Position numbers and translations under genes: made by a program
NCBI GenBank assembly: GCA_002839645.1
Contig: PGYL01000022.1
Location: 1 to 55,606, forward strand
DNA from: Methanomicrobiales archaeon HGW-Methanomicrobiales-2
GTDB lineage: Archaea; Halobacteriota; Methanomicrobia; Methanomicrobiales; Methanoculleaceae
DNA: 55,606 nt
Reading direction: 5' to 3'
The notes under the pieces: model-generated
What the model was told of the DNA's origin: nothing
What the model saw: the letters and a program-made list of their open reading frames with translations, nothing else
The model's database searches: none
Shown here: positions 5,832 to 54,418 of the stretch, in pieces
Layout: each line of letters starts with the position of its first letter
How positions within the stretch are numbered: the first letter of the stretch is position 1

Positions 5832-5901
5832 ACTTATTAATAGCACTCTCAAATTACTGATTAATTAGACCTATACATTCGGATTACCTGATGGTATAGG
5901 T
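5832..5901 (+). promoter_or_regulatory. fdhC promoter and leader with 8-bp inverted repeat
   Basis: An AT-rich segment with ACTTATTAATA (5832-5842) can serve as TATA box. The inferred transcript would begin near 5865, just before a perfect inverted repeat, ACCTATAC (5869-5876) and GTATAGGT (5894-5901), with a 17-nt loop. The repeat lies about 26 nt before the fdhC start and could be an operator or a leader stem-loop. The ribosome binding site is GAGAGGTG at about 5911-5918. Confidence 0.5.
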
Positions 5902-5927
5902 AGGACGTTTAGAGAGGTGTATGAAAA

Positions 5928-6800
5928 ATGGTATTCCATCCTCCAGTTGCTATTGTAGCAAAAGCAGGTGATGCCGGGAAGTACAAGGTCGGTCTGCCGG
6001 CCTGGAACATGCTTCTGCGTGGTGTCCTGTCCGGAGCGTTCATCGCAATGGGCGCAGCCCTGGCGACGATCTGTTCGACCGGTATCCAGGCAACCGACGT
6101 TGCGATGCGGTTCGGTGCGGCAAGCCCCGGTATCTCCCAGCTCATTCTGGGTGCTGTCTTCCCTGTCGGACTTATCATCACAATCATGACCGGTGCCGAA
6201 CTCTTCACCGGCGACGCGATGCTCGCCCCCATGGCAGCGTTCGTCCACAAGGTCAGCTGGGCAAGCGTGCTCAACCTCTGGCTCTGGGTATACATCGGCA
6301 ACCTGATCGGATCGGTCCTCTTCGCGTATATCGTGGCATACGGTCCGTACGCCAGTTTCGATGCCGCCGGAACCGCAACGCTCACTGCGTTCGGTGTAAG
6401 AGCAGTAGGCATAGCGACCGCAAAGACGAGTTATGTCGGCGCCATGGCAATATGGTCGCTCTTCCTCAAGGCAATCGCCTGTAACTGGCTCGTCAACCTT
6501 GCTGTCCTGCTCGGCATATGCGCCGACGATGCGATCGGCAAGATTGTCGGTATCTGGTTCCCGATCTTCGCCTTCGTTGCCAGCGGGTTCGAGCACAGCA
6601 TTGCGAACATGTACTTCATCCCGGCAGGCATCTTCTGCACGGGCATCGACCCCACGAAGGCGGTCGCGACACTCAACTGGGTGACCATGTGGACCAACAA
6701 CGTGATTGTGGTCACGCTCGGCAACATCGTCGGCGGTCTGTTCTTCGTTGGTGTCCTCTACTGGGTCGCGTTCAGAAAGGAAATTGCAGCCCTTAAGTAG
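5928..6800 (+). CDS. fdhC: Formate transporter, FNT family
   Basis: Membrane channel of the formate/nitrite transporter family that brings formate into the cell for FdhAB. The 290-residue product has six clear hydrophobic segments and the family landmarks: the glycine-rich first helix (RGVLSGAFIAMGAAL), the segment with MTGAELFTGD, and the conserved CNWLVNLAV motif with GFEHSIANMYFIP. The start at 5928 is supported by GAGAGGTG 9 nt upstream; an out-of-frame ATG at 5920 is not used. It is followed after 22 nt by the OB-fold membrane protein and probably shares a transcript with it. Confidence 0.95.
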   Translation: MVFHPPVAIVAKAGDAGKYKVGLPAWNMLLRGVLSGAFIAMGAALATICSTGIQATDVAMRFGAASPGISQLILGAVFPVGLIITIMTGAELFTGDAMLAPMAAFVHKVSWASVLNLWLWVYIGNLIGSVLFAYIVAYGPYASFDAAGTATLTAFGVRAVGIATAKTSYVGAMAIWSLFLKAIACNWLVNLAVLLGICADDAIGKIVGIWFPIFAFVASGFEHSIANMYFIPAGIFCTGIDPTKAVATLNWVTMWTNNVIVVTLGNIVGGLFFVGVLYWVAFRKEIAALK

Positions 6801-6822
6801 TCCTAAGTAGACTTGATTAACG

Positions 6823-7326
6823 ATGCAGATCGGAAATATCAAAGTGAGGATGACGGTCATTACAGTGGCCGTCTTCCTCTTTTTTGTTGTCTTGATGGCA
6901 GCGTATGTCCTCACTACAGGGGATGTATACCTGCTGACCTGGGGCGTACCTGTGGCTCTCATGCTGGTTCTCATACCGCTAGCGCTCAACTACATGAGTC
7001 AGTCACAGTATGCGTCACTGGTGCCTATGTACGAAGCAGAAGCGAAAACCGTCCGGATACGGGAGATCAACTTAAACCTGCTCGGCGAACCGGTGCGTGT
7101 GAAGGGTGTCGTCGAACGGGCGTATTTCCAGTTCCTCAACCGGCCGCAGTATCTTGTCGCCGACCGGACCGGTGAAGTATCGGTCAAGATGTTCACCTCC
7201 CCCCTTGAAGATGTGCAGAAAGGGGATGTGGTCGAGGTGCTCGGCGTCGTCGTCAAACGCTACATCATGTCCGGTGATGCGGTCGTCAACTGCGTCTCGA
7301 TACGAAAAATCGAGAAAGCTCAGTAA
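6823..7326 (+). CDS. Membrane-anchored OB-fold protein
   Basis: Function unknown. Residues about 10-30 and 38-56 form two hydrophobic helices, after which a soluble domain of about 100 residues shows an OB-fold nucleic-acid-binding pattern: VRVKGVVER, YLVADRTGEVSVKMF, and GDVVEVLGVVVKR. The domain is predicted to face the cytoplasm. It sits 22 nt behind fdhC, so cotranscription is likely, but I see no mechanistic link to formate uptake. Related proteins in methanogens are usually labelled only as nucleotide-binding. The 86-bp gap that follows separates it from the converging herA gene. Confidence 0.75.
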   Translation: MQIGNIKVRMTVITVAVFLFFVVLMAAYVLTTGDVYLLTWGVPVALMLVLIPLALNYMSQSQYASLVPMYEAEAKTVRIREINLNLLGEPVRVKGVVERAYFQFLNRPQYLVADRTGEVSVKMFTSPLEDVQKGDVVEVLGVVVKRYIMSGDAVVNCVSIRKIEKAQ

Positions 7327-41985: not shown

Positions 41986-42017
41986 TGGCTGCAGCCAAGG
42001 CTCTAAAGAGAATCTAC

Positions 42018-42443
42018 CTATAGATCGGTTGAACTGCCCTCTGCGATGTGCTCCTTCATAACGAGAGAGAACTCCCGGAGGATGGCGAGATCACGTTGCA
42101 GGATAGCGTACACCTGCTTGAGGTCCAGATTCCAGTAGATGTGGACGAGCACGTTCCGGAATCCCGCCAGGTTTGCGAGTTCTCCTGCCAGAGAGTCAGA
42201 GATAATCCCCTCACCTGCAAGGACCTCAAATGTCTCCCGGTAGGTGAAGGGCTTCCTCAATCTTCCTTCTGCAATCACATCGGTCGCTATGTCGATTGCC
42301 GACTGGATAGATAACAACATGGCATGATGAACCATATTTTGCGTATCCCGGTCTTGCAGGAACTGCCCCTCCGGGATGCGCTGGTACCGCTCCCAGTCCC
42401 TCAGAGCCTCCTCCAGTTCCCGCATGTGATGGAAGACCCTCAT
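42018..42443 (-). CDS. hepT: HepT-type toxin (HEPN RNase)
   Basis: 141-residue helical protein of the HEPN/DUF86 family. The RNase motif Rx4HxY is intact as RNVLVHIY. In characterised systems HepT cuts RNA and is silenced by MntA, which adds AMP to the motif tyrosine. The start overlaps the end of mntA by 4 bp (ATGA), the canonical arrangement of the pair. Confidence 0.88.
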   Translation of the reverse strand: MRVFHHMRELEEALRDWERYQRIPEGQFLQDRDTQNMVHHAMLLSIQSAIDIATDVIAEGRLRKPFTYRETFEVLAGEGIISDSLAGELANLAGFRNVLVHIYWNLDLKQVYAILQRDLAILREFSLVMKEHIAEGSSTDL

Positions 42444-42859
42444 TCTCCCACCCGGGCAAGGAGAGCCCTATCAGTCCTGTCATAGAGATATTTCAGGTCG
42501 AGGAACTGCGCTATCACGCTGGCCTCAAAGGCGATGCGCGTAGATTCATCCCGGGCGATAAGGAGGTGCCCGGTCCTCACCACCTCGTACTGGAACTCCA
42601 CGGGCGCATCGTTCAGCATGCGAAGATCGATCTCATACCTCGGCGTGATGCATCGCTCAAGGTCGGATGCGATCCCCATAGCATATTTGTAGGACTCGTA
42701 AGGCTCTCTCTCCCCTGAGACAAGCAGCCCGATATCGATATCGTGAAACCCGTCATGACGAAGGAATGAGCCGTAGAGATATCCGAGAAGCACATCCTCT
42801 CTGCCGGTGAGGCACCGGCGGAGCTGGTCGATGATCCGCTCTCTGTCAACATCATTCAC
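42440..42859 (-). CDS. mntA: MntA-type nucleotidyltransferase antitoxin
   Basis: 139-residue minimal nucleotidyltransferase. The active-site signature is GSFLRHDGFHDID followed by IGLLV; GS and DxD are separated by 8 residues, shorter than the 10 of the standard GSx10DxD, and a third carboxylate lies in YEIDLRML. Antitoxin that adenylylates HepT. First gene of the mntA-hepT pair. The 258 bp between it and hcp hold nothing I recognise except the hcp terminator. Confidence 0.88.
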   Translation of the reverse strand: MNDVDRERIIDQLRRCLTGREDVLLGYLYGSFLRHDGFHDIDIGLLVSGEREPYESYKYAMGIASDLERCITPRYEIDLRMLNDAPVEFQYEVVRTGHLLIARDESTRIAFEASVIAQFLDLKYLYDRTDRALLARVGE

Positions 42860-43102
42860 TTCTTCCCTCTCCCGTATCTACTGACCTTCGTAAGGGCCCG
42901 TTCCGCGCGCAATCGGGCCGACAGCAAAGAGGTTTGCTCTCTCCTTGCTCATTAACTCTTCCCTGCGGCAGAACCCCCTGTGGTGCCCCTGCCGGAGATG
43001 GGGAAAACCGTGCACTGGCCCTGCAATTACCCGGCTCCTGGAGATCGCCTGCACATGAGGGGCTGCTCCCGGCCCTCACGTCTGTAAAACCTGTCCGCTC
43101 CG

Positions 43103-43111
43103 AAAAAAAAA
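43103..43111 (-). terminator. T9 terminator of hcp
   Basis: On the minus strand nine consecutive Ts begin 6 nt beyond the hcp stop codon at 43118. This is the clearest T-tract terminator in the window. Confidence 0.65.
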
Positions 43112-43117
43112 GAATAT

Positions 43118-44734
43118 TCAGTTCCCCGGCACCATCCGGCCGAGGTCCTCCTCGACCGTCGTGATCCCTTTGATCCCGAAGTTCTCGACGAGAACCGCGA
43201 GAACGCCGGGCGAGACGAAGCCCGGGAGGCGGGGGCCGAGGGTGATCTCCTTAACACCGAGCGAGAGGAGGCTTAAGAGGACGAGGACCGCCTTCTGCTC
43301 GTACCAGGCGATGTTGTATGAGACCGGGAGTTCGTTGATCCCGACGCCGAACGCTTCCGCGAGGGCCTGGGCGATGACCACGAGCGAGTAACAGTCGTTG
43401 CACTGGCCGGCGTCGAGGACGCGGGGGATGCCGCCGATGTCCCCGAGACCGAGGCTGTTGTAGCGGTACTTCGCGCACCCGGCGGTGAGGATGATCGTGT
43501 CCGCGGGAAGGGCCTCTGCAAACCGGGTGTAGTAGTCCCGTTCGCCGTGCCGCCCGTCGCAGCCCGCCATCACGAGGAACCGCTTGACGGCGCCGGACTT
43601 CACCGCATCGATGACCGCATCCGCGATAGCAAGGACCGGGGCGTGGGCGCACCCCGTAACCAGGTCGCCGCGGGAGAGGTCCTCCGGGGACTCGCAGCGC
43701 TTCGCGTGCTCGATCAGGGCCGAGAAGTCCTTCTTTCCGTCCGGCGAGGCGTCGATGTGCTTTACCCCCGCAAACCCGACGAGCCCGGTGGTGTAGACCC
43801 GGTCGCGGTAGGAGTCCTTCGGGGGGACGAGGCAGTTCGTCGTGACCAGGACCGGGCCGTTGAACCGCTCGAACTCCTCCCGCTGGAACGGCCAGGAGCC
43901 GCCGTAGTTCCCGACGAGGTGGCCGTACTTCGCAAGGCCCGGGTAGGCGTGCGCCGGGAGCATCTCGCCGTGGGTGTAGACGTCGACGCCCGCTCCGCGG
44001 GTCTGTTCGAGGAGGTCGGCGAGGTCCTTGAGGTCGTGGCCGGTGACCAGGATGCCCGGCCGCGTGCCTGCGGCGGTACCGACCGTCGTGATCGCCGGCG
44101 TCCCGTAGACAGCGGTGTTCGCCGTATCGAGGAGGGCGAGGACCTTCACGCCGATCTCGCCGCACGCGAGCACGTAGCCGACCATCTCCTCGACGGTGAG
44201 GTCCTGCAGCGTGGCGGCGAGCCCCTCCTGCATGAAGGTCATGACCTCCTTGTCCTCGTAGCCGAGGACGGCGGCGTGATGCGAGTAGGCGCCGACCCCT
44301 TTGAGCCCGTAGACGAGGAGGTCGCGGAGCGACTGGAGGTCGACGTTCACGTTCTCCCGTGCGGCGACGATCTCCTCTGCCTTTGCCGCGATCGCTTCAG
44401 GGCTCGCCGGCGCCCAGGTGCAGGCCGCGGGCTCCGCACTCCCGGCGGGCGGGAGGGCGTCGCGGATACGGGCCGCCTCCTGGATCGCGCTCTCGAACCG
44501 CGCGGGGTCGAAGTTCACGTTGGTCAGGGTCGCAAAAAGGCTCTCCGCGACGAACTTCCCTGCCTCCGGGTTCCCGCCGCCCTTCTTCATCGCCGCGAGG
44601 TTCCGTACCGAGAGCCCCTTGAGGGTGTAGATCAGGACGTCCTGGAGCCCGGCGGTCTCCCCATCCTTGCCGCAGACACCACGCACGGTGCAGCCATAGC
44701 CCTTTGCCGTCTCTTCACACTGATTGCAGAACAT
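43118..44734 (-). CDS. hcp: Hybrid-cluster protein (hydroxylamine / NO reductase family)
   Basis: 538-residue hybrid-cluster protein that reduces hydroxylamine in vitro and, in bacteria, nitric oxide. The N-terminal cubane ligands are C3, C6, C15 and C21 ([19 protein letters not shown]). The hybrid-cluster ligands follow in segments such as [40 protein letters not shown] and [17 protein letters not shown]. The ATG at 44734 is preceded by GGAGTGA. The divergent HxlR regulator and the intervening operator point to control by nitrosative or oxidative stress. Confidence 0.95.
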
Positions 44735-44750
44735 TCACATTCACTCCGTG

Positions 44751-44783
44751 GTATCCTTTTGATACAAAGTATCAGTATGATAC
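44751..44783. promoter_or_regulatory. Double palindromic operator between hcp and hxlR
   Basis: Two copies of GTATC-N5-GATAC, at 44751-44765 (spacer CTTTT) and 44769-44783 (spacer AGTAT). Their centres are 18 bp apart, so two dimers could bind almost in phase. The second is part of the longer perfect palindrome AGTATCA-GTA-TGATACT (44768-44784). It lies directly upstream of the hxlR TATA box and about 17-50 nt before the hcp ATG, where bound protein would block both promoters. Confidence 0.75.
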
Positions 44784-44786
44784 TAA

Positions 44787-44794
44787 TGTATATG
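44787..44794 (+). promoter_or_regulatory. TATA box of hxlR
   Basis: TGTATATG, 27-34 nt before the hxlR ATG at 44821, abuts the double operator. No ribosome binding site is visible, so the transcript is probably leaderless. Confidence 0.55.
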
Positions 44795-44820
44795 TAGGAG
44801 AAGGTTTCTCTAATTATACC

Positions 44821-45180
44821 ATGCAGAGCGTCTGCACGGTCAATCAGACCGTCAAGTACCTCGGAAAGAAGTGGATGCTCCTGATCATCCTCGAACTCTA
44901 CAAAGGGGAGGGCTACACCCGGCGGTTCACCGAGATAAAGGAGCGGCTCCCGGGGATCACGGCGAAGGTCCTCTCGGCCCGACTGAAGGAACTGGAGGAG
45001 GAAGGCCTCGTCGAGAAGCACGTGGATGCCGGGACCGTCCCCGTCAGGAGCGAGTACACCCTCACGGCAAGCGGGCTTGGACTCGTCGAGGTGATCAAGG
45101 ATATCAAGCGGTGGGCGCTCGAGTGGAAGATCGAGAACCGGGCGTGCGGGGCGCAGGACTGTCACGACTGTGTGCTGTGA
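44821..45180 (+). CDS. HxlR-family transcriptional regulator with C-terminal Cys cluster
   Basis: 119-residue winged-helix DNA-binding protein of the HxlR type: LGKKWMLLIILELYKG, RFTEIKERLPGITAKVLSARLKELEEEGLVEKH (recognition helix and wing region), and YTLTASGLGLVEVIKDIKRWALEW. Its end, CGAQDCHDCVL, plus a Cys near the N-terminus, could sense redox state or bind metal or NO. Start ATG 44821 with a TATA box 27 nt upstream; the frame is open upstream but runs through the operator. Very likely it controls hcp and itself. Confidence 0.88.
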   Translation: MQSVCTVNQTVKYLGKKWMLLIILELYKGEGYTRRFTEIKERLPGITAKVLSARLKELEEEGLVEKHVDAGTVPVRSEYTLTASGLGLVEVIKDIKRWALEWKIENRACGAQDCHDCVL

Positions 45181-45349
45181 ATCGCCCTATAGGTGGGGCT
45201 TACGGCGGCCATTACGCGTCTCCTGAGCGGGCCGGGGAGAGGCGACTCTCCCCACCCGGCTGTGGTGCTCCGGCTTTGAGCTTCAATCGATCCGGGGCAG
45301 GACGGCGGCGCTGAAAACACTCCGCCCCGGCCGATAACTCTGCCGAAAA

Positions 45350-45378
45350 AAGGTATCAACCAGGAGAACCGATACCTT
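45350..45378 (+). repeat. 8-bp inverted repeat before ruvC
   Basis: AAGGTATC (45350-45357) and GATACCTT (45371-45378) are perfect complements with a 13-nt loop, ending 24 nt before the ruvC ATG. It can form a leader hairpin or serve as an operator. The half-sites GTATC/GATAC equal those of the hcp operator but with a different spacing. The rest of the 222-bp gap 45181-45402 shows nothing recognisable. Confidence 0.45.
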
Positions 45379-45402
45379 AGTGAACAGAAACCGGATTTAC
45401 CC

Positions 45403-45879
45403 ATGATCGTCATTGGTATCGACCCAGGGCTCGCAAGAACCGGCTACGGTGTCCTCAGCACCGGCGGCAGATCTCCGGTGCCGCTGACCTACGGCTGCAT
45501 AGAGACTGGCGCCGACCGCATCCACGAGGAGCGGTTGCTTGAGATCCACACGAGGATCTCCGATCTCTTCGACGAATACGATCCCGGGTGGGTCGCCGTG
45601 GAGCGGCTCTTCTTCTCCAGGAACACCACCTCGGCGATGCAGGTCAGCGAGGCACGCGGCGTCCTCCTCCTCGCCGCGGCACAGCACGGGGTCCCGATTG
45701 CCGAGTATACCCCCAATCAGGTCAAACAGGCGGTCACCGGGTCAGGGCGTGCCGATAAACATCAGATGCAGGAGATGATGCGCCGGCTCCTCAGGCTGGA
45801 GGAGGTGCCCCGGCCCGACGATGCCGCCGACGGCCTCGCCATCGCCCTCTGCCACATCAATATGGTGCAACTACGATGA
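45403..45879 (+). CDS. ruvC: Holliday junction resolvase RuvC
   Basis: Dimeric endonuclease that cuts four-way junctions. RNase H fold with the four catalytic carboxylates in place: D7 in IGIDPG, E67 in VAVERLFF, and D140 and D143 in RPDDAADGLAIALCH. 158 residues. Bacterial-type RuvC is uncommon in archaea, which normally use Hjc; here it starts a ruvC-ruvA-ruvB run with 4-bp overlaps. Confidence 0.94.
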   Translation: MIVIGIDPGLARTGYGVLSTGGRSPVPLTYGCIETGADRIHEERLLEIHTRISDLFDEYDPGWVAVERLFFSRNTTSAMQVSEARGVLLLAAAQHGVPIAEYTPNQVKQAVTGSGRADKHQMQEMMRRLLRLEEVPRPDDAADGLAIALCHINMVQLR

Positions 45880-46469
45880 TAGCCCAACTCTCGGGAGAAG
45901 TGATATCCACCGGCGACCGGTGGGTGGTGATCGATATCGGCGGCGTCGGCTACCGGGTGCAGGTGACCGGACCGGCGCTGGAGACCCTCGGGCAGGCGCA
46001 GGGCCGCGTTACGGTCCACACCCATATGGTGGTCCGCGATGACGATATCCGACTTTTCGGCTTTCTCCACCAGCGCGAACGGGAACTCTTCACGATCCTG
46101 ATCGGGGTCTCCGGCATCGGCCCCCAGATCGCCATGAACATCCTCTCCGGGATAGCGTTCGAGGACTTTGCCGTTGCAATCCTCGACGGCGACGAGAGGA
46201 CGCTCACCCGGATCCCCGGGATCGGGAAGAAGGGTGCCGGACGCCTGATCCTTGAGTTGAAGGAGAAGATGAAGAAGCATGCGGATACCCTCGCCGCCGG
46301 CAGGCGCCCGACCGAGGCCTCTGATGCCGCGAGCGCCCTCATATCGCTTGGGTTCTCACCCGGGGAAGCAGGGGAGGCGGTTGACGCCGTCCTCCCCCGT
46401 CACCCTGATGCGAACGTGCAGAACCTGATCCGCGCCGCTCTTGCACACCTCCGGGAGCGCCGGCCATGA
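45876..46469 (+). CDS. ruvA: Holliday junction branch migration protein RuvA
   Basis: Tetrameric junction-binding subunit that loads RuvB. N-terminal OB domain ([39 protein letters not shown]), tandem helix-hairpin-helix motifs in [16 protein letters not shown] and [22 protein letters not shown], then a flexible linker and the C-terminal RuvB-binding domain with [14 protein letters not shown]. 197 residues, normal. ATGA overlaps with both neighbours. Confidence 0.94.
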
Positions 46470-47458
46470 ACGAACGCATCCCATCGCCCTCCCCCCTCAG
46501 CGGTGAACCCGACGAAGCAGCCATCAGGCCGGCGCGCCTCGACGAGTTCGTGGGCCAGCCGCAGATCAAGGAGGCTCTCGCCATCTCCATCGCCGCCGCA
46601 AAAAAACGCGGCGAGTCTCTCGACCACGTCCTCTTCTCAGGCCCACCGGGCCTCGGGAAGACGACGCTCGCCCAGATCATCGCGCGCGAGATGGGAGCCG
46701 GGATCAGGAGCACCACCGGGCCGGTGCTGGAACGGCCCGGCGACCTCGCCGCCCAGCTGACCGCCCTTGCCCACGGCGACGTCCTCTTCATCGACGAGAT
46801 CCATCGCCTCAACCCGGTGGTCGAGGAGATCCTCTACCCGGCGATGGAGGACTCCTGCATCGACGTGATGATCGGCGAGGGACCGGGTGCACGATCGGTC
46901 CAGCTCCCGCTGGAGGAGTTCACCCTCATCGGCGCCACGACGAAGGTCGGGCTGCTCGGCTCCCCTCTCCGTGACCGGTTCGGGTTCATCTTCCGCCTCA
47001 ACCTCTACGAAGTTCCCGATCTCGCGAAGATTGTGGAGCGGAGCGCCGGGATCATGCAGATCCCGATCACCCCCGATGGAGCGGATGAGATAGCAAAACG
47101 GAGCCGCGGGACACCCAGGATCGCAAACCGGCTGCTCCGCCGGGTGCGGGACTTCGCCACGGTCAAGGGGGACGGGAGTATCGACGCCGAGACGGCCGAT
47201 CGCGCCCTGACCATGCTCGGCATCGACCGCCTGGGCCTCGACGACCTCGACCGGCGGATCCTCTCGGTCATCGCAGACGATTTCGGCGGCGGGCCGGTGG
47301 GCGTCAAAACGATCGCGATATCGGTCGGCGAGGAGGTGCGGACCATCGAAGAGGTCTACGAGCCCTACCTGATCCAGATCGGGTTCATAAAACGCACGCC
47401 CCAGGGCCGGGAGACGACCGGGGCGGCCCTGCGCCACCTCGGAAGCGGTCTCAGATAA
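46466..47458 (+). CDS. ruvB: Holliday junction branch migration helicase RuvB
   Basis: Hexameric AAA+ motor for branch migration. [18 protein letters not shown], Walker A GPPGLGKT at residues 59-66, Walker [12 protein letters not shown], sensor 1 [11 protein letters not shown], arginine finger in LRDRFG, and the C-terminal winged helix with [18 protein letters not shown]. 330 residues. Its last 8 bp overlap the end of the convergent top6A, so there is no room for a terminator between the units. Confidence 0.95.
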
Positions 47459-48539
47459 CCCCCATCTCCGACAACCTCGTCGGCAGGTACTCCTTCGTCA
47501 CAAAATCGAGTCCCCTGCTCGCGAACGCCTGCTGTTCCGACTTCACCTTCATATCGAGCTGCAGGTGGATCTGGTTATGCCAGTAATCGGTCGCAAACCT
47601 CGGATCCGTCAGCTCAGCCTTTAAGGCATTGATGTCCTGCTCTGTGAGGTGGTCGGAGGGGAGGTTGTAGTCGGATATGTCGGAGGGCTGCACGCCGATG
47701 AACTGCGCCTGGGGAGTCGCCAGAAGTTCCGACATGTGGGCGCTCTTGATCGAGCCGTAGGCGACGCTCGCGTAGATCCGGTAGGACCAGGGGTCGCCGT
47801 CGGTGAAGACGACCACCGGCAGGTTGAGCGAGTCGTTGAGTTTGCGCAGGACTCGGCGCGTGGAGCGTGCCGGCTGCCCTTTCAGGTGGACCAGGATCGC
47901 CCCGTACTCCTCGTCGAACCCGTTCTCCATCAGACGGGCATACATACCGCCGGTCTCGATGGCGATGACGAACTTTGCATCGTGGTCGATGAAGTCGAGG
48001 CTGTCGACGTTGTTCGGGATGGGGTAACCCGCCTCCCCGACATCCTCCTGGCAGTGCATCTCCCGCACGCCGCGCCGGGTGGTCTCCCGTATCTTCAGGG
48101 GCCCGAAGAGCGAGGCCCCGTCCTCCTCGGGCCGGAGGTGGAACGCCTCCCGCTGCACCTCCGTGATGATCTCGAGATCCTCGATTAAGAGGTTGCTCTC
48201 GTCCTGGGCGCCGAACTTCGCCTTCTTCCAGCCCTCGGAGATGTAGTAGAGTTCTCTTAATGTCGACGACCGGTTCTCCACGAGTTGCTTTTTTAAGAAC
48301 CAGACGAGGTAGGCCATCTTTAAGAGGTGGGCCGCGCCTTTTTCGGTCGTAGCCGCCCGGGTGCTCTCCCTATCGCCGTACTTCCAGACCTCGCTTTCGT
48401 CGTCGTACGCGATATTTAACTTCGTCCGCGTCGGCAGTCGGATGAACGGCACGATGCCGTCCCGTATCTGGTCGTACCAGGTGCGGGCGATACCGACGAG
48501 CCGTTCCTTTGCCAGCGCATCCATCTCTTCCCTAGACAT
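47451..48539 (-). CDS. top6A: DNA topoisomerase VI subunit A (Spo11-like)
   Basis: DNA-cleaving subunit of the type IIB topoisomerase that decatenates and relaxes DNA. The winged-helix CAP domain carries the nucleophilic tyrosine (Y98 or Y99) in [12 protein letters not shown]. The Toprim domain has the metal-binding Glu in [11 protein letters not shown] and the DxD in [11 protein letters not shown]. 362 residues, standard. ATG 48539 overlaps the top6B stop by 8 bp, so the two subunits are translationally coupled. Confidence 0.96.
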
Positions 48540-50334
48540 CGAGATCCACCACCACTTTCATGCCGTCCTCCACGCCGCGCAGATCGAGCGATCCGTCGCC
48601 CACCCCCGTGTAGGCGACCTGCCAGGCCGCGCCGGGGGCAAGTGTGCACCGCCAGACCTTGTTGTACTCCCCGTCGAGATTGTCCGTGAAGTCCGGCCGG
48701 GGCTCTGCATCCGCCGCCGCATCACGCGAGAGGTTGTAGAGGACGAACGTAACCTCCCGCGCGGTGTGGTTGTTCACGTCGATACGGACTTTCCCGTCGC
48801 TCGTCCGCTTCTTGGCGACGATCTTTCGCATGATCTTTCCCTCGATCGGCGAGGTGTCCACCAGGGGAAGCTCGACGATCTCGCTCACTTTCGCGGCGAT
48901 CTCGGGGATGATCGAGCATATCGCCCGGGCCCGGTCGTCCTGCTGCTTCTTTTTGTCCCGGTGGGAGAGGTAACTCTTGAGTTCCCGGCCGAGTTCCTGG
49001 AGCACGAGGACGACCTCCCGCTCGATCTCCGGGATGGACGCGACCGCGTCCTTGCTCTCGCTCGTGAAGGGGACGTTCGTGGACGCCACGTGGACCATGA
49101 TCAGCGCCGGGCCCATGGGGAGGCCCTGCTGCGAGAGGCCGTAACCCTTCCAGTTCACCTGGGAGACGCAGTTCGTGATCGCGCAGGCGCCCTGCTGGTA
49201 GAGGAGCGGGACGCGGTTTGCGAACCGGAAGAGTTGGGCGGTGCCTTCGGGTGGAACCTTGCCGCCGTAGCCGATCGCCGCCTCGATGATGAACGAGTGC
49301 CCGCCGTGGACCATGCTCGGGCGGGTGCGGGCTTTGATGAAGTCGAGCTGGATCTCCTTCTCAAGCCCCCTGCAGATCAGGTCTTCCCCGATGGGGGAGA
49401 GGCACTGCTGCGCCGGCGGGGCCGGGACCTTCACGGCCTGCATGGCGTCGAGGAGCCGCTTTAATTCGTCCGATTCGAGTTTGTTCACTTTCCGGGCGGG
49501 CTTGAGTTTTGCGAGCGCGATCATCTCGTCCGCGGTCTTCTTCCCGACCCGGGAGAAACTGCCGACGAGGAACTCCTCGACTGTCCCGGTGCTCGCGGCC
49601 GCGATCCTCTTCAAGGCCCCGAACTCGATCCCGTGCGGGTGGGGGAGGATGGGCTTTGGGCACGGGGGAACCTCGCTACTCACCCGCTCGAACGTCGTCA
49701 CCTCGCCGTCGATATCGGCCGTGATCCGGGCGTGTGGGTTGACGATTGCGGTGAGGCGGAGGTAGTCCACCAGCCGCTTCTTTGCGGCAAGGGAACTCTT
49801 GAACTGGATCTCGATCCTCGTCCCGTGCATCCGGTCCCAGTCGATCTCTTCATGGCTGACGATCTCGGGCTCGTTGGTCTCGGTCTTGATCATCAGCTCG
49901 AACCGGTGGGCCCTCGCCTTTGCCCCCGTCCGGGAGATGACCAGCGCCGGGGTGCCGGTGGTGAGCTGCGCATACAGCACCGCCGCCGATATCCCGATAC
50001 CCTGCTGCCCCCGGCTCTGCCGGATCTGGTGGAACCGCGACCCGTAGAGGAGCTTCCCGAAGACCAGGGGGACGTTCTCCGGCACGATCCCGGGACCGTT
50101 GTCCTCGACCGTTATCCGGTAGACCTCGGCATCGATCCTCTTTATGCCGACAAAGATGTCGGGGAGCACCTCCGCCTCCTCGCAGGCGTCGAGCGCGTTG
50201 TCCACCGCCTCCTTGATGGTGGTGATGATGCCGCGGGTCGGGGAGTCGAAGCCGAGCAGGTGCTTGTTCTTCTCGAAGAACTCCGCGACGCTGATGCTCC
50301 GCTGCTGTTTGGCGAGGTCTTCAGCAAGCACCAT
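48532..50334 (-). CDS. top6B: DNA topoisomerase VI subunit B
   Basis: ATPase subunit of topoisomerase VI. From ATG 50334 ([20 protein letters not shown]) the 600 residues show the GHKL ATPase: N-box [24 protein letters not shown], and the glycine-rich lid [17 protein letters not shown]; then the helix-two-turns-helix and transducer domains. A good ribosome binding site, GGAGAGGAG, ends 7 nt before this ATG although it lies inside the upstream synthetase reading frame, so independent initiation is likely. The C-terminal extension of about 80 residues has an Ig-like look. The stop overlaps top6A. Confidence 0.93.
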
Positions 50335-51528
50335 GCCGAGGCTCCTCTCCTGCTGCTCGCCGGAGTGGAGGTTCTTGAGGGTCACCGTGCCCGCCTCGAC
50401 CTCACGCTTCCCGAGGACCACGGCAAAGTCTGCGGTCTTGGCGGCGTGAGAGACCTGGGCACCCATCCCCCGCTGCATCAGGTCGGCTTCGGCCCGGATC
50501 CCCGCATTCCGGAAGGCCCGGGCAACCTCGAGCGCCCGCGCCCGTGCTTCGGGCATGCAGACGACGCCGACGACAGGTCTGCTCTCCAGCGCAAAGTCCC
50601 CGACTGAGACCATGACCCGGTCAAACCCTATGGCGAACCCCGAAGAGGCGACGTCGTCGCCGCCGAAGAGGTGGGCGAGCCGGTAGGTGCCGCCGCCGAG
50701 GATCTGGTTCTCCGCGCCGAGGTTCCTGGCGAACGCCTCAAAGACCATTCCCGTGTAGTAGTCAAGCCCCCGGGCGATCCCGAAGTCCGGCTGGTAGTTG
50801 ATATTCTGGGAGTCGAGGAGTGCGAACGTCTCTTCGATCCGCGCGCGTTCCGGGACGTCCCCCACGATCTCGAAGATCTCGGGGATGGTGCGGCACTCCG
50901 AGAGGGCGGCAAGGGGCTCGGTGAGGCGGGTGAGCCCCCGGCCGACGAGCGCCGCTTTGAGCCCTTCCTGGTCGTGCTTGTCGAGACAGGCCATGATCGC
51001 CCGCTGGTCGCCGGGGGCGAGGTCGGCGAGGAGATGCTTCATCGGCGCGAGGTGGCCGACATGGAGGTCGAACGTGACGTCGCTCGACCGGAGCGTCTCG
51101 TCGGCGAGCATGATCACCTCGGCGTCTGCGCTTGCCGTGTCCGCGCCGATCAGCTCGACGCCGAACTGCCAGAACTGCCGGTAACGGCCTTTCTGGGGGC
51201 GCTCGTAGCGGAAACAGTCGGCGAAGTAGCACCAGCGGATGGGTTTGGGGAGGACTTTGCCCTCGTTGACGTACATCCGCAACACCGCTGCCGTCACCTC
51301 GGGCCGGAGCGTCATCTGCCTGCCGCCCTTGTCTTCGAAGACGTACATCTCCTGCATGATCCCTTCGCCGGACTTCATCGTGAAGAGTTCAAGGTGTTCG
51401 AAGTCGGGCGTGCAGACCTCCCGGTATCCCCACCTGCGGGTCGCTTCCCGCATCCTCTGCTCGATCAGCCGCCGTCGTTCCATCTCGTCGGGTAAAAAAT
51501 CCCGCGTTCCCCGTGGTTTCTGAAGCAT
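48532..51528 (-). CDS. hisS: Continuous reading frame: histidyl-tRNA synthetase joined to topoisomerase VI subunit B
   Basis: From ATG 51528 ([20 protein letters not shown]) the first 398 codons encode histidyl-tRNA synthetase: class II motif 2 with [21 protein letters not shown], the histidine-binding [12 protein letters not shown], motif 3 with [11 protein letters not shown], and the anticodon-binding domain from [10 protein letters not shown] to [12 protein letters not shown]. No stop codon follows; the frame passes through ERSLG straight into the start of Top6B and ends at 48532, 998 codons in all. In one alternative frame a TGA lies at 50323-50321, just inside top6B, where a normal overlapping hisS stop would be expected. 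It is therefore either a true fusion or a single indel near the hisS end. The synthetase part is nearly full length. Confidence 0.8.
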
Positions 51529-51544
51529 TCGGTATTCTCCTGAA

Positions 51545-51877
51545 CTAAAGTCTCTTGCGTGAGCCCTTATCTTTTGTGCGCTCTGCCCTGCCGAAGAACC
51601 GCGCGCCGGTACCTTCACCGTGCCATACGTTCTCCCGGTCGACCCGGCCCTGAAGGTAGAGGGCTAAAAGGACCAGGCCGAGGCCGAGGTACTCCCATGC
51701 TTCGGCAAACGCGGTGACAAAGAAGCCAAGCAGCGCGAGAGCCGTATAGGGTACTCCCCGGTAGGCTGCCGTCCGGTAGCCGGGAAGGCCTGTTCTGGAA
51801 AAGATCCGCAGGTCGCGGAGCCACAGGAAAGCGGTGACGGCAAGGCCGAACCCTGCGACGTAGACAAGATAGGACAT
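51545..51877 (-). CDS. Small membrane protein of unknown function
   Basis: 110 residues with three probable transmembrane helices (about 3-20, 44-60 and 62-80) and a basic, soluble C-terminus (FFGRAERTKDKGSRKRL). No family recognised. It lies 16 nt upstream of the hisS start on the same strand and is probably the first gene of the hisS-top6B-top6A unit. Confidence 0.65.
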   Translation of the reverse strand: MSYLVYVAGFGLAVTAFLWLRDLRIFSRTGLPGYRTAAYRGVPYTALALLGFFVTAFAEAWEYLGLGLVLLALYLQGRVDRENVWHGEGTGARFFGRAERTKDKGSRKRL

Positions 51878-52698: not shown

Positions 52699-53201
52699 GC
52701 CGGGGGTTCTACGTCGGGCGGTTCCAGCCCTACCATAACGGGCACCAGTCGGTGCTGGAGAGAATAGCCTGCTCTGCCGACGAAATCGTCATCGGGGTGG
52801 GGAGCGCCCAGCTCTCCCATACTGTGGCAAACCCGTTCACTGCAGGAGAACGGGTGCTGATGCTCACGCGGTCGCTTGCCGACCTCGAGTGTCCGTTCTA
52901 CGTCATCCCCCTCGAGGATGTCCAGCGCAATGCCCTCTGGGTTGCTCACGTCCGGGCGATGACACCGCCGTTCGATACGGTCTACTCGAGCAACCCCCTC
53001 GTCATGCAACTTTTCACCGAGGCGGGGGTGGACGTCCAGTCGCCCGACATGTACGAGCGGCTGACGCACTCCGGCACTGCCATCAGACAGCGGATGCTCG
53101 ACGGTGAACCCTGGGAGCACCTGGTCCCCACCGCCGTGGTGGACGTCATTCGGGAGATCCACGGCGTGGAGCGGCTGCAGCGGATTGCAGGGAGTGATTG
53201 A
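52695..53201 (+). CDS. nadM: Nicotinamide-nucleotide adenylyltransferase, archaeal type
   Basis: Makes NAD from NMN and ATP. The nucleotidyl transferase signature [13 protein letters not shown] near the N-terminus contains the HxGH-type histidines, and the C-terminal SGTAIRQRM is the ISSTxxR-like motif of the archaeal enzyme. 168 residues. ATG 52695 overlaps the larB stop (ATGA); the frame is open upstream only because it runs antisense-like through larB. Confidence 0.93.
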
Positions 53202-53213
53202 GGGGTGGACCAT

Positions 53214-54418
53214 GTTTAAGCAACTGCGAGACCTCTTTCGGCGGACCGAGGCCGCGGAAGAGAAGTTAGAACTCTCCTTTGACGACCTTCCGGGCTGGCT
53301 GGATGCCCGCGAGGAAGAGACCGGGAAAGAACTCTCCAGTGCGACGGGGCCTTCGCGGGAGGCGATCAGCGGCACCCTCGGCAGCCTCAGGGAGGCGATC
53401 GCCCGTATGGAGACGGCCGACGGTGATGAGGAGGTCCACCCCCGTCTCCGGGATATTTCACGAAAGGCCCTCCCGGGATTCACGAAGTCCATGGCCCAGA
53501 TCCTCTCCCGCGAGCCTTCCGGCGACCCGGAGACTTTCTACACCGCCGCCGCCGAGATTTTGAAGGGCGCGATCAAGGCGTTGAAAGGACAGGGGAAGTA
53601 CCTCGCCTCCCTCTACCCTGAGGAGATGAAGGAGGTGCGCACCGCCGTCAGGGATCTGGGGCGGGAGATCAACACCATGACCGAGGCGATCACCCGCGCC
53701 CGTGCTGGCCGGAAGCAGGTGACAGACGTCCGGGAGTCGTATGAATCCCTTGTTTTGACCCGCGAGGAGTATACCGCCGCTTCTGGCCAGGTGCGGGAGT
53801 TCGGGGCGGCGCTTGCGAAAGCGGAGAAGAAGATCCGGGAGGCCGAACAGGGCCTCGCTGACCTCAAGCAGCGCCCGGATTACGCCAGAGAGCAGGAGAT
53901 CGAGGAGAGGATCCGTGAACTCGATGCCGTGGACGAGGAGACCGGGCGAGAGATCGCAGCTCTCCGAACTCCTGCCGTCCATCTCTTCCGGAAGGCCGAA
54001 AAGGTGGCCGGAAAGGCAGGGGATAGTGCGGCGGCCGCGGCGATAGGCCGGGTCCTCGATGCCTACACGGGCAGCCTCGCGGGTGACGAGGAAGACCCGG
54101 CAGGCCTGACCGAAGCGGTGATGCCGGCTATTCTCGCCATGATCGGACGCCGAGACCTTGCCCTCAAGAACCAGGATGAGGTCCGTCTCTTCTCGGACCC
54201 CGATACCCTGCCCGCCGGAGGAGCAGCATCTTACGGCTACGCTCGCACGACTGCAGCGGGAGCGCGAGGCAAAGGCTGCAGCGCGGGCCCGGGCGGAGAA
54301 CCAGCAGGAGATGTCGCAGGCCTCGTATGCCACAGAATGCGAGAGGCTCCGGTCCCGCGCGGCTGCTCTTGCCGGCCGGGATGTGGAGGTCGACGTGCCC
54401 GACCTCCCGCCCGCCTGA
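53214..54418 (+). pseudogene. Coiled-coil protein gene with a frameshift near its 3' end
   Basis: From ATG 53214 (MFKQLRDLFRRTEAAEEKLEL) the product is acidic, highly helical and has coiled-coil heptads, especially about residues 140-260. No family recognised. Up to about 54220 (SDPDTLP) the sequence is plausible; beyond, the same frame turns into a Gly/Arg/Cys-rich nonsense run to a stop at 54480. The neighbouring frame continues naturally with EEQHLTATLARLQRERE and ends at a TGA at 54418. One extra base in CCCGCCGGAGG (54208-54218) explains this. It could be decay or a sequencing error. Twelve nt after nadM. Confidence 0.6.

Follow-up and report, generated by a model that had tools for sequence, protein, structure and literature searches.

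In Haloferax volcanii, translation of the downstream gene was found to depend on ribosomes reaching the overlap in all four tested pairs of overlapping genes, which had overlaps of 4 nucleotides (nt) (PMC6728339). The genes for histidyl-tRNA synthetase (HisRS, hisS) and for subunit B of DNA topoisomerase VI (Top6B, top6B) form a comparable pair in Methanoculleus and its relatives, as they likewise are co-directed, overlap by a short stretch and have an internal Shine-Dalgarno site for the downstream gene, with the difference from the Haloferax pairs that the overlap has 14 nt. Gene neighbourhoods of topoisomerase VI have been discussed in PMC2643942, from which the word 'histidyl' is absent. 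The extreme N-terminus of Top6B is a strap that is reported to be domain-swapped between the two subunits of the dimer (PMC13040014). Here we describe the hisS-top6B junction of Methanomicrobiales archaeon HGW-Methanomicrobiales-2 (GCA_002839645.1), in which both genes share one uninterrupted reading frame. The window, i.e. the whole stretch of DNA analysed, is contig PGYL01000022.1 with its full 55,606 nt, one of the 69 contigs of a 2.78-Mb genome that is 99.5% complete.

On the minus strand, 48532-51528 is a single open frame of 998 codons plus stop, with zero internal stops. It begins with the hisS ATG at 51528, runs into the top6B ATG at 50334 and ends at 48532 with no stop on the way. An earlier note on this DNA had described hisS as running without a stop into Top6B in a 998-codon frame, and this is confirmed by the translation and by profile matches to both proteins. 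The hisS portion (50335..51528, minus strand, residues 1-398) matches TIGR00442 of NCBIfam over residues 3-395 with 365.3 bits (cut-off 286.75) as well as the Pfam domains tRNA-synt_His and HGTP_anticodon, and it is without the native last helix. The top6B portion (48532..50334, minus strand, residues 399-998 plus stop) includes its own ATG and matches two further NCBIfam models, NF003218 over residues 402-924 (707.5 bits, cut-off 274) and TIGR01052 (528.4 bits, cut-off 380.7). Its Pfam domains HATPase_c, Topo-VIb_trans and Top6b_C indicate that the ATPase, transducer and C-terminal domains are all present, the match to the last of them sitting exactly at its cut-off of 28.6. Residues that do not vary among relatives are kept almost throughout: the HisRS half has 118 of the 119 columns that are invariant in 27 aligned relatives, with D for G at position 150 as the sole change, and the Top6B half has all 256 columns that are invariant in 12 aligned relatives. 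As judged from such conservation, both halves apart from the HisRS tail look functional, with no sign of decay. The fused frame is the sole place in the 69 contigs that matches either half, and an extra hisS or top6B copy that could relieve the chimera was therefore rejected at the given completeness of the genome.

The single frame goes back to a missing segment. In alignments, the window lacks exactly 25 nt directly upstream of the top6B ATG (deletion junction at 50336..50339, minus strand), and this segment is present in all 29 loci of the same genus that were read; the same 25-nt gap appears in blastn of the window against two of the relatives, G010 and G007. The exact place of the deletion is ambiguous by a 2-nt microhomology (CG, compared with relatives that carry CCTCG before the segment). 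The underlying genus search covered 35 genomes including the window's own, 33 of which matched, and the junction was read in 29 of the 32 others (L002-L030), three having been left out because they were in pieces (G019, G020) or not loaded (G023). In each of the 29 loci, hisS is in another frame than top6B and ends at a TGA located 11 nt downstream of the A in the top6B ATG, resulting in a 14-nt overlap and in hisS tails such as ...QERSLEDAIAEVARHGAC. The same TGA is found in the window at 50321..50323 (minus strand), where it is out of frame. As 25 nt correspond to eight codons and one base, their loss shifts hisS into the frame of top6B. The cluster is thus like that of Methanoculleus and its relatives in its genes (hisS, top6B and top6A), in their order, in the strand of hisS and top6B, in the TGA and in the start position of top6B, and it differs in that the 25 nt are lacking and hisS reads on into top6B, where it does not end after the first 14 nt. 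The out-of-frame TGA had already been suspected in the earlier note to be the place of an ordinary overlapping hisS stop, and the comparison of hisS C-termini that had been proposed there shows this to be true, with 25 more nt and a stop at just this TGA in all 29 relatives. The suspicion of an indel was right in that all these loci differ from the window by one, but it is a 25-nt indel upstream of the ATG and not one extra or missing base.

With the 25 nt, also the ribosome-binding site of the relatives is gone: their GAGGT- or GGGT-type site falls inside the missing segment and is replaced by GGAGAGGAG, a Shine-Dalgarno-like sequence at 50342..50350 (minus strand) that owes its position to the deletion. 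The duplex energy of GGAGAGGAG, computed like all others against a 16S tail, is -9.3 kcal/mol; the sites of the 29 relatives average -8.5 (from -6.4 to -12.2), and a pairing as strong is reached by 6.65% of 2000 random 20-mers of the window. The site is good, judged by its pairing, but it is not proof of internal initiation at top6B. The internal site 7 nt before the ATG at 50334 that had been noted earlier is thus indeed there, and the separate Top6B that was attributed to it would be made only if the site works.

An upstream stop within or next to the downstream start, which is true of all 29 same-genus relatives, has been lost in the window. By analogy with the archaeal termination-reinitiation pairs of PMC6728339, the ancestral hisS-top6B pair may be coupled by termination and reinitiation; compared with these pairs, the joint of the window has lost its termination event, so that readthrough and de novo internal initiation are the only options left. 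If the fusion is real, it abolishes the termination step, and free Top6B would hence depend on de novo initiation at GGAGAGGAG. Because the N-terminal strap is swapped in the dimer (PMC13040014), free Top6B probably matters, and the strap is free only where the internal start serves. HisRS, in turn, would have no separate source save cleavage or frameshifting. A real deletion after which a ribosomal frameshift still leads hisS to the TGA at 50323-50321, so that a nearly normal HisRS would be made, is very unlikely: the TGA does persist at its old distance of 11 nt from the A of the ATG of top6B, but inspection of the junction by eye revealed no slippery run, and the 29 same-genus loci use that frame directly.

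What the deletion would mean for the protein can be estimated from structure models. In the AlphaFold2 model of the relative L049, the last helix of HisRS comprises residues 397-406, and the deletion begins at the start of this helix. From residue 398 on, HisRS is replaced in the fusion, and the native C-terminal helix of the anticodon-binding domain is absent. The model of the fusion has a strand at 392-396 that is followed by a helix at 399-407 from the Top6B N-terminus, residues 405-412 being of low confidence. As a whole this model is weak (mean pLDDT 67.5, pTM 0.43), and how the two halves are arranged cannot be read from it. When scored against the columns of the HisRS tail, the replacement peptide reaches -1.29, the native tail 22.19, and random peptides -8.12 on average; a score as good as that of the replacement is found for 2.8% of 1498 ORF (open reading frame) N-termini with a leading G and for 9.2% of 4000 random 10-mers.

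The 25 nt may have been lost in the organism or only in its assembly. We lean, with little confidence, towards a real 25-nt deletion that generated a tolerated HisRS-Top6B gene fusion. An assembly or library artefact is plausible without being probable; in this case the ordinary 14-nt overlap would exist in the organism, and the 25 nt would have dropped out during the making of the contig, for instance by a wrong join in gap closing or because a minority read or a chimeric read became the consensus. Such an artefact would agree with the presence of the 25 nt in all 29 same-genus loci, whose arrangement is otherwise equal, and with HisRS being presumably essential. It does not agree well with the type of the loss, as 25 nt with a 2-nt microhomology are not what a homopolymer slip or a collapsed repeat of assembly-word length would leave, and indels of at least 10 nt are not in excess in this genome: over the shared stretches, 12 of them were counted against two relatives in the window's genome (G000), 8 in G010 and 18 in G007, so that a loss of 25 nt is by itself nothing out of the ordinary for the genus. 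A general indel excess in the assembly is therefore not seen for this size class, with frame-disrupting indels being somewhat more frequent. No case could be made for hairpins either. The hisS segment is at percentiles 0.11 and 0.24 of random segments, so that it is not unusually hairpin-prone, and a hairpin-driven loss was rejected; the medians in this test were 0.11 for the window's genome (8 losses), 0.30 for G010 (3 losses) and 0.26 for G007 (12 losses). Before this comparison with random segments, the losses near this contig end had looked hairpin-rich by eye.

Several observations weigh against a real and tolerated fusion. An ORF comparison drew on 1.72 of the 2.78 Mb of the window's genome, the window included, and on 400 kb from either relative, G010 and G007. 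In it, 94 ORFs of this genome had counterparts in both relatives, of which 82 were intact in both comparisons and 3 were frame-disrupted against both, and all 3 are on the contig of the window, which contributed only 26 of the 94. Apart from hisS-top6B, which is the first of the 3, one of the indels in question is an 88-89-nt loss relative to G010 and G007 at 54218, 4 kb from the hisS junction, which breaks the frame of a gene at 53197-54412 (plus strand) that is matched as an unbroken single stretch in 16 of 17 near loci, while the remaining locus ends within the gene; alignment filters kept this loss outside the hairpin test and the indel count. Another one is a 10-nt insertion at 6805 that shifts the frame of the ORF 5871-6989 and has no counterpart in G010 and G007, with which alone it was compared; by eye, the insertion resembles an imperfect tandem copy (AAGTAG...). 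These two frame-breaking indels are not shared by the compared relatives and speak for an artefact, as does a further disruption elsewhere in the genome, at L192, the only additional one in the window's genome when the ORFs of the relatives served as reference; in that direction, one disruption was found in G007 alone, with the window's genome intact, none in G010 alone, and four could not be assigned, as more than one genome was broken or partial. Frame-breaking indels that cluster on one contig fit a locally poor assembly. The protein itself adds to the doubt, as the columns of the HisRS tail are matched far less well by the replacement than by the native sequence, and a large N-terminal fusion might impair the swapped strap of Top6B described in PMC13040014. 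Finally, the relatives read keep hisS and top6B separate.

This last point was followed in 109 loci, consisting of the window, the 29 loci of the genus search and 79 loci of a GTDB collection; as genomes are partly in both sets, the 108 others represent 92 distinct junctions. None of these 108 loci (92 distinct junctions) has a hisS-top6B fusion. Of the 79 GTDB loci, 58 have an overlap of 14 nt, 8 have one of 17 nt, 4 have one of 10 nt and 1 has one of 4 nt; another 7 have their hisS stop ahead of the position that aligns with the top6B start, and for L105 no start position could be assigned. In four of the 79 (L031, L032, L044, L050), hisS and top6B are in one frame with a stop between them. 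The 14-nt overlap, being found in all 29 same-genus loci and in 58 of the 79 GTDB loci from several genera, appears to be an old arrangement and may couple the synthesis of HisRS and topoisomerase VI.

An order-wide search covered 232 genomes, 206 of which had a match at 1e-150. Among the matches listed, which do not comprise all of the lower-scoring ones, eight span both halves, and only that of the window's own genome is free of stops. The other seven were considered as possible fusions and rejected, as reading of the DNA revealed one real stop between the genes in each of them; open-frame lengths taken from the table are unreliable when there is a stop inside, as with L026, which has 602 in the DNA and 624 in the table. 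In six of the seven (G102, G113, G115, G118, G119 and G120), both genes are in the same frame, and a TAA or TAG is followed by one codon and then by a TTG at the top6B start position. The seventh, G208, has a TAA 30 nt ahead of the aligned top6B start position and no start codon at that position. The six resemble the window in having one frame, with three bases from the stop to the TTG, and they differ from it in that the stop has been kept in all of them. Relatives in which a single point mutation would suffice for a similar fusion thus retain their stop. In this related family (L230-L235, corresponding to G102, G115, G120, G119, G113 and G118), a change of one stop codon would yield such a fusion. 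For the loci read, an ancestral or recurrent fusion was consequently rejected, as none of the 108 is fused and the seven full-span matches keep a stop. The neighbourhood of hisS and top6B is not universal in the order either, as G114 (L238) has no hisS match within the 5 kb read around its top6B. In a sample of the phylum at a threshold of 1e-200, 92 of 392 genomes passed and all of them belong to the same order, so that this sample has no bearing on more distant archaea. A search of viral contigs for the junction 24-mer returned no matches, which is uninformative for a chromosomal locus.

These distributions also bear on the idea that a selected bifunctional HisRS-Top6B protein connects DNA topology with the charging of tRNA or with the supply of histidine. 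The frame is open, the conserved residues are kept in both halves, and hisS and top6B are neighbours in all 109 loci (although these were chosen with a query containing both genes), so that a link in expression may be old. However, the fusion occurs in one genome only, with no second lineage and no linker; the joint reuses the Top6B strap, the stop is kept in all six close same-frame cases of other genera, and G114 has no hisS match in the 5 kb around its top6B. We consider a selected bifunctional protein the least likely of all explanations and highly improbable. The earlier note had envisaged an unprecedented coupling of translation to DNA topology, and this part of it was not supported, given that none of the 108 other loci is fused and seven same-frame genomes keep one stop.

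To return to the real deletion, the following course of events would account for the locus. Ancestrally, hisS and top6B would have been separate genes in different frames with a 14-nt overlap, and ribosomes that ended hisS could reinitiate on top6B. A 25-nt deletion in the last hisS codons, in one lineage or in one assembly, would then have produced the single frame, in which hisS misses its TGA and reads on through all of top6B. If the deletion is chromosomal, the only HisRS gene found would make a 998-residue HisRS-Top6B chimera, in which the first Top6B helix may stand in for the lost last helix of HisRS, and some separate Top6B may still arise from the GGAGAGGAG site that the deletion has positioned. 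The chimera would be tolerated rather than selected. What we infer in this course is a deletion that is truly chromosomal, a chimera that is produced, and an internal initiation that works. The boldest version, according to which the deletion is fixed in the chromosome, the 998-residue fusion is the sole HisRS and is built into or alongside topoisomerase VI, so that tRNA-His is charged right at the machinery of DNA topology, and internally started Top6B keeps the topoisomerase working, is unlikely.

The surroundings of the fused frame complete the picture of the cluster. Its third gene is top6A for subunit A of topoisomerase VI (47451..48539, minus strand), which has the Pfam domains TOP6A-Spo11_Toprim, Topo_VI_alpha and TP6A_N and overlaps the end of top6B by 8 nt. 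Just downstream of top6A, about 5.5 kb (41986-47449) are unmatched in the corresponding stretch of G010, where the flanks are about 50 nt apart, and G007 matches only the first kilobase. At the other end, mechanical ORF prediction extends the fused frame upstream to a GTG at 51618, which would give 1028 amino acids, while the homology of the relatives begins at the ATG at 51528, and a Shine-Dalgarno-like GGAGA of hisS is found at 51536..51540 (minus strand).

A small deletion that fuses two neighbouring overlapping genes is an ordinary kind of event. Neither an association of hisS with top6B, nor an operon or fusion of HisRS and topoisomerase VI, nor a C-terminal extension fusion of an archaeal HisRS was found in the open PubMed Central literature, and this pair of partners was thus not found in print there. 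No support was found for a conserved coupling of translation and topology, and the locus gives the impression of a single accident or of an error in the assembly. Should the fusion not be real, it serves as a useful warning, as the assembly would be annotated with a nonexistent 998-residue HisRS-Top6B protein. If it is real, it would be a natural experiment, in which HisRS has to work with its last helix exchanged for a topoisomerase subunit of 600 residues, and the Top6B strap has no free end in the fused form. It would then probe how much change the HisRS tail tolerates and if internal initiation is able to substitute for termination-reinitiation where archaeal genes overlap.

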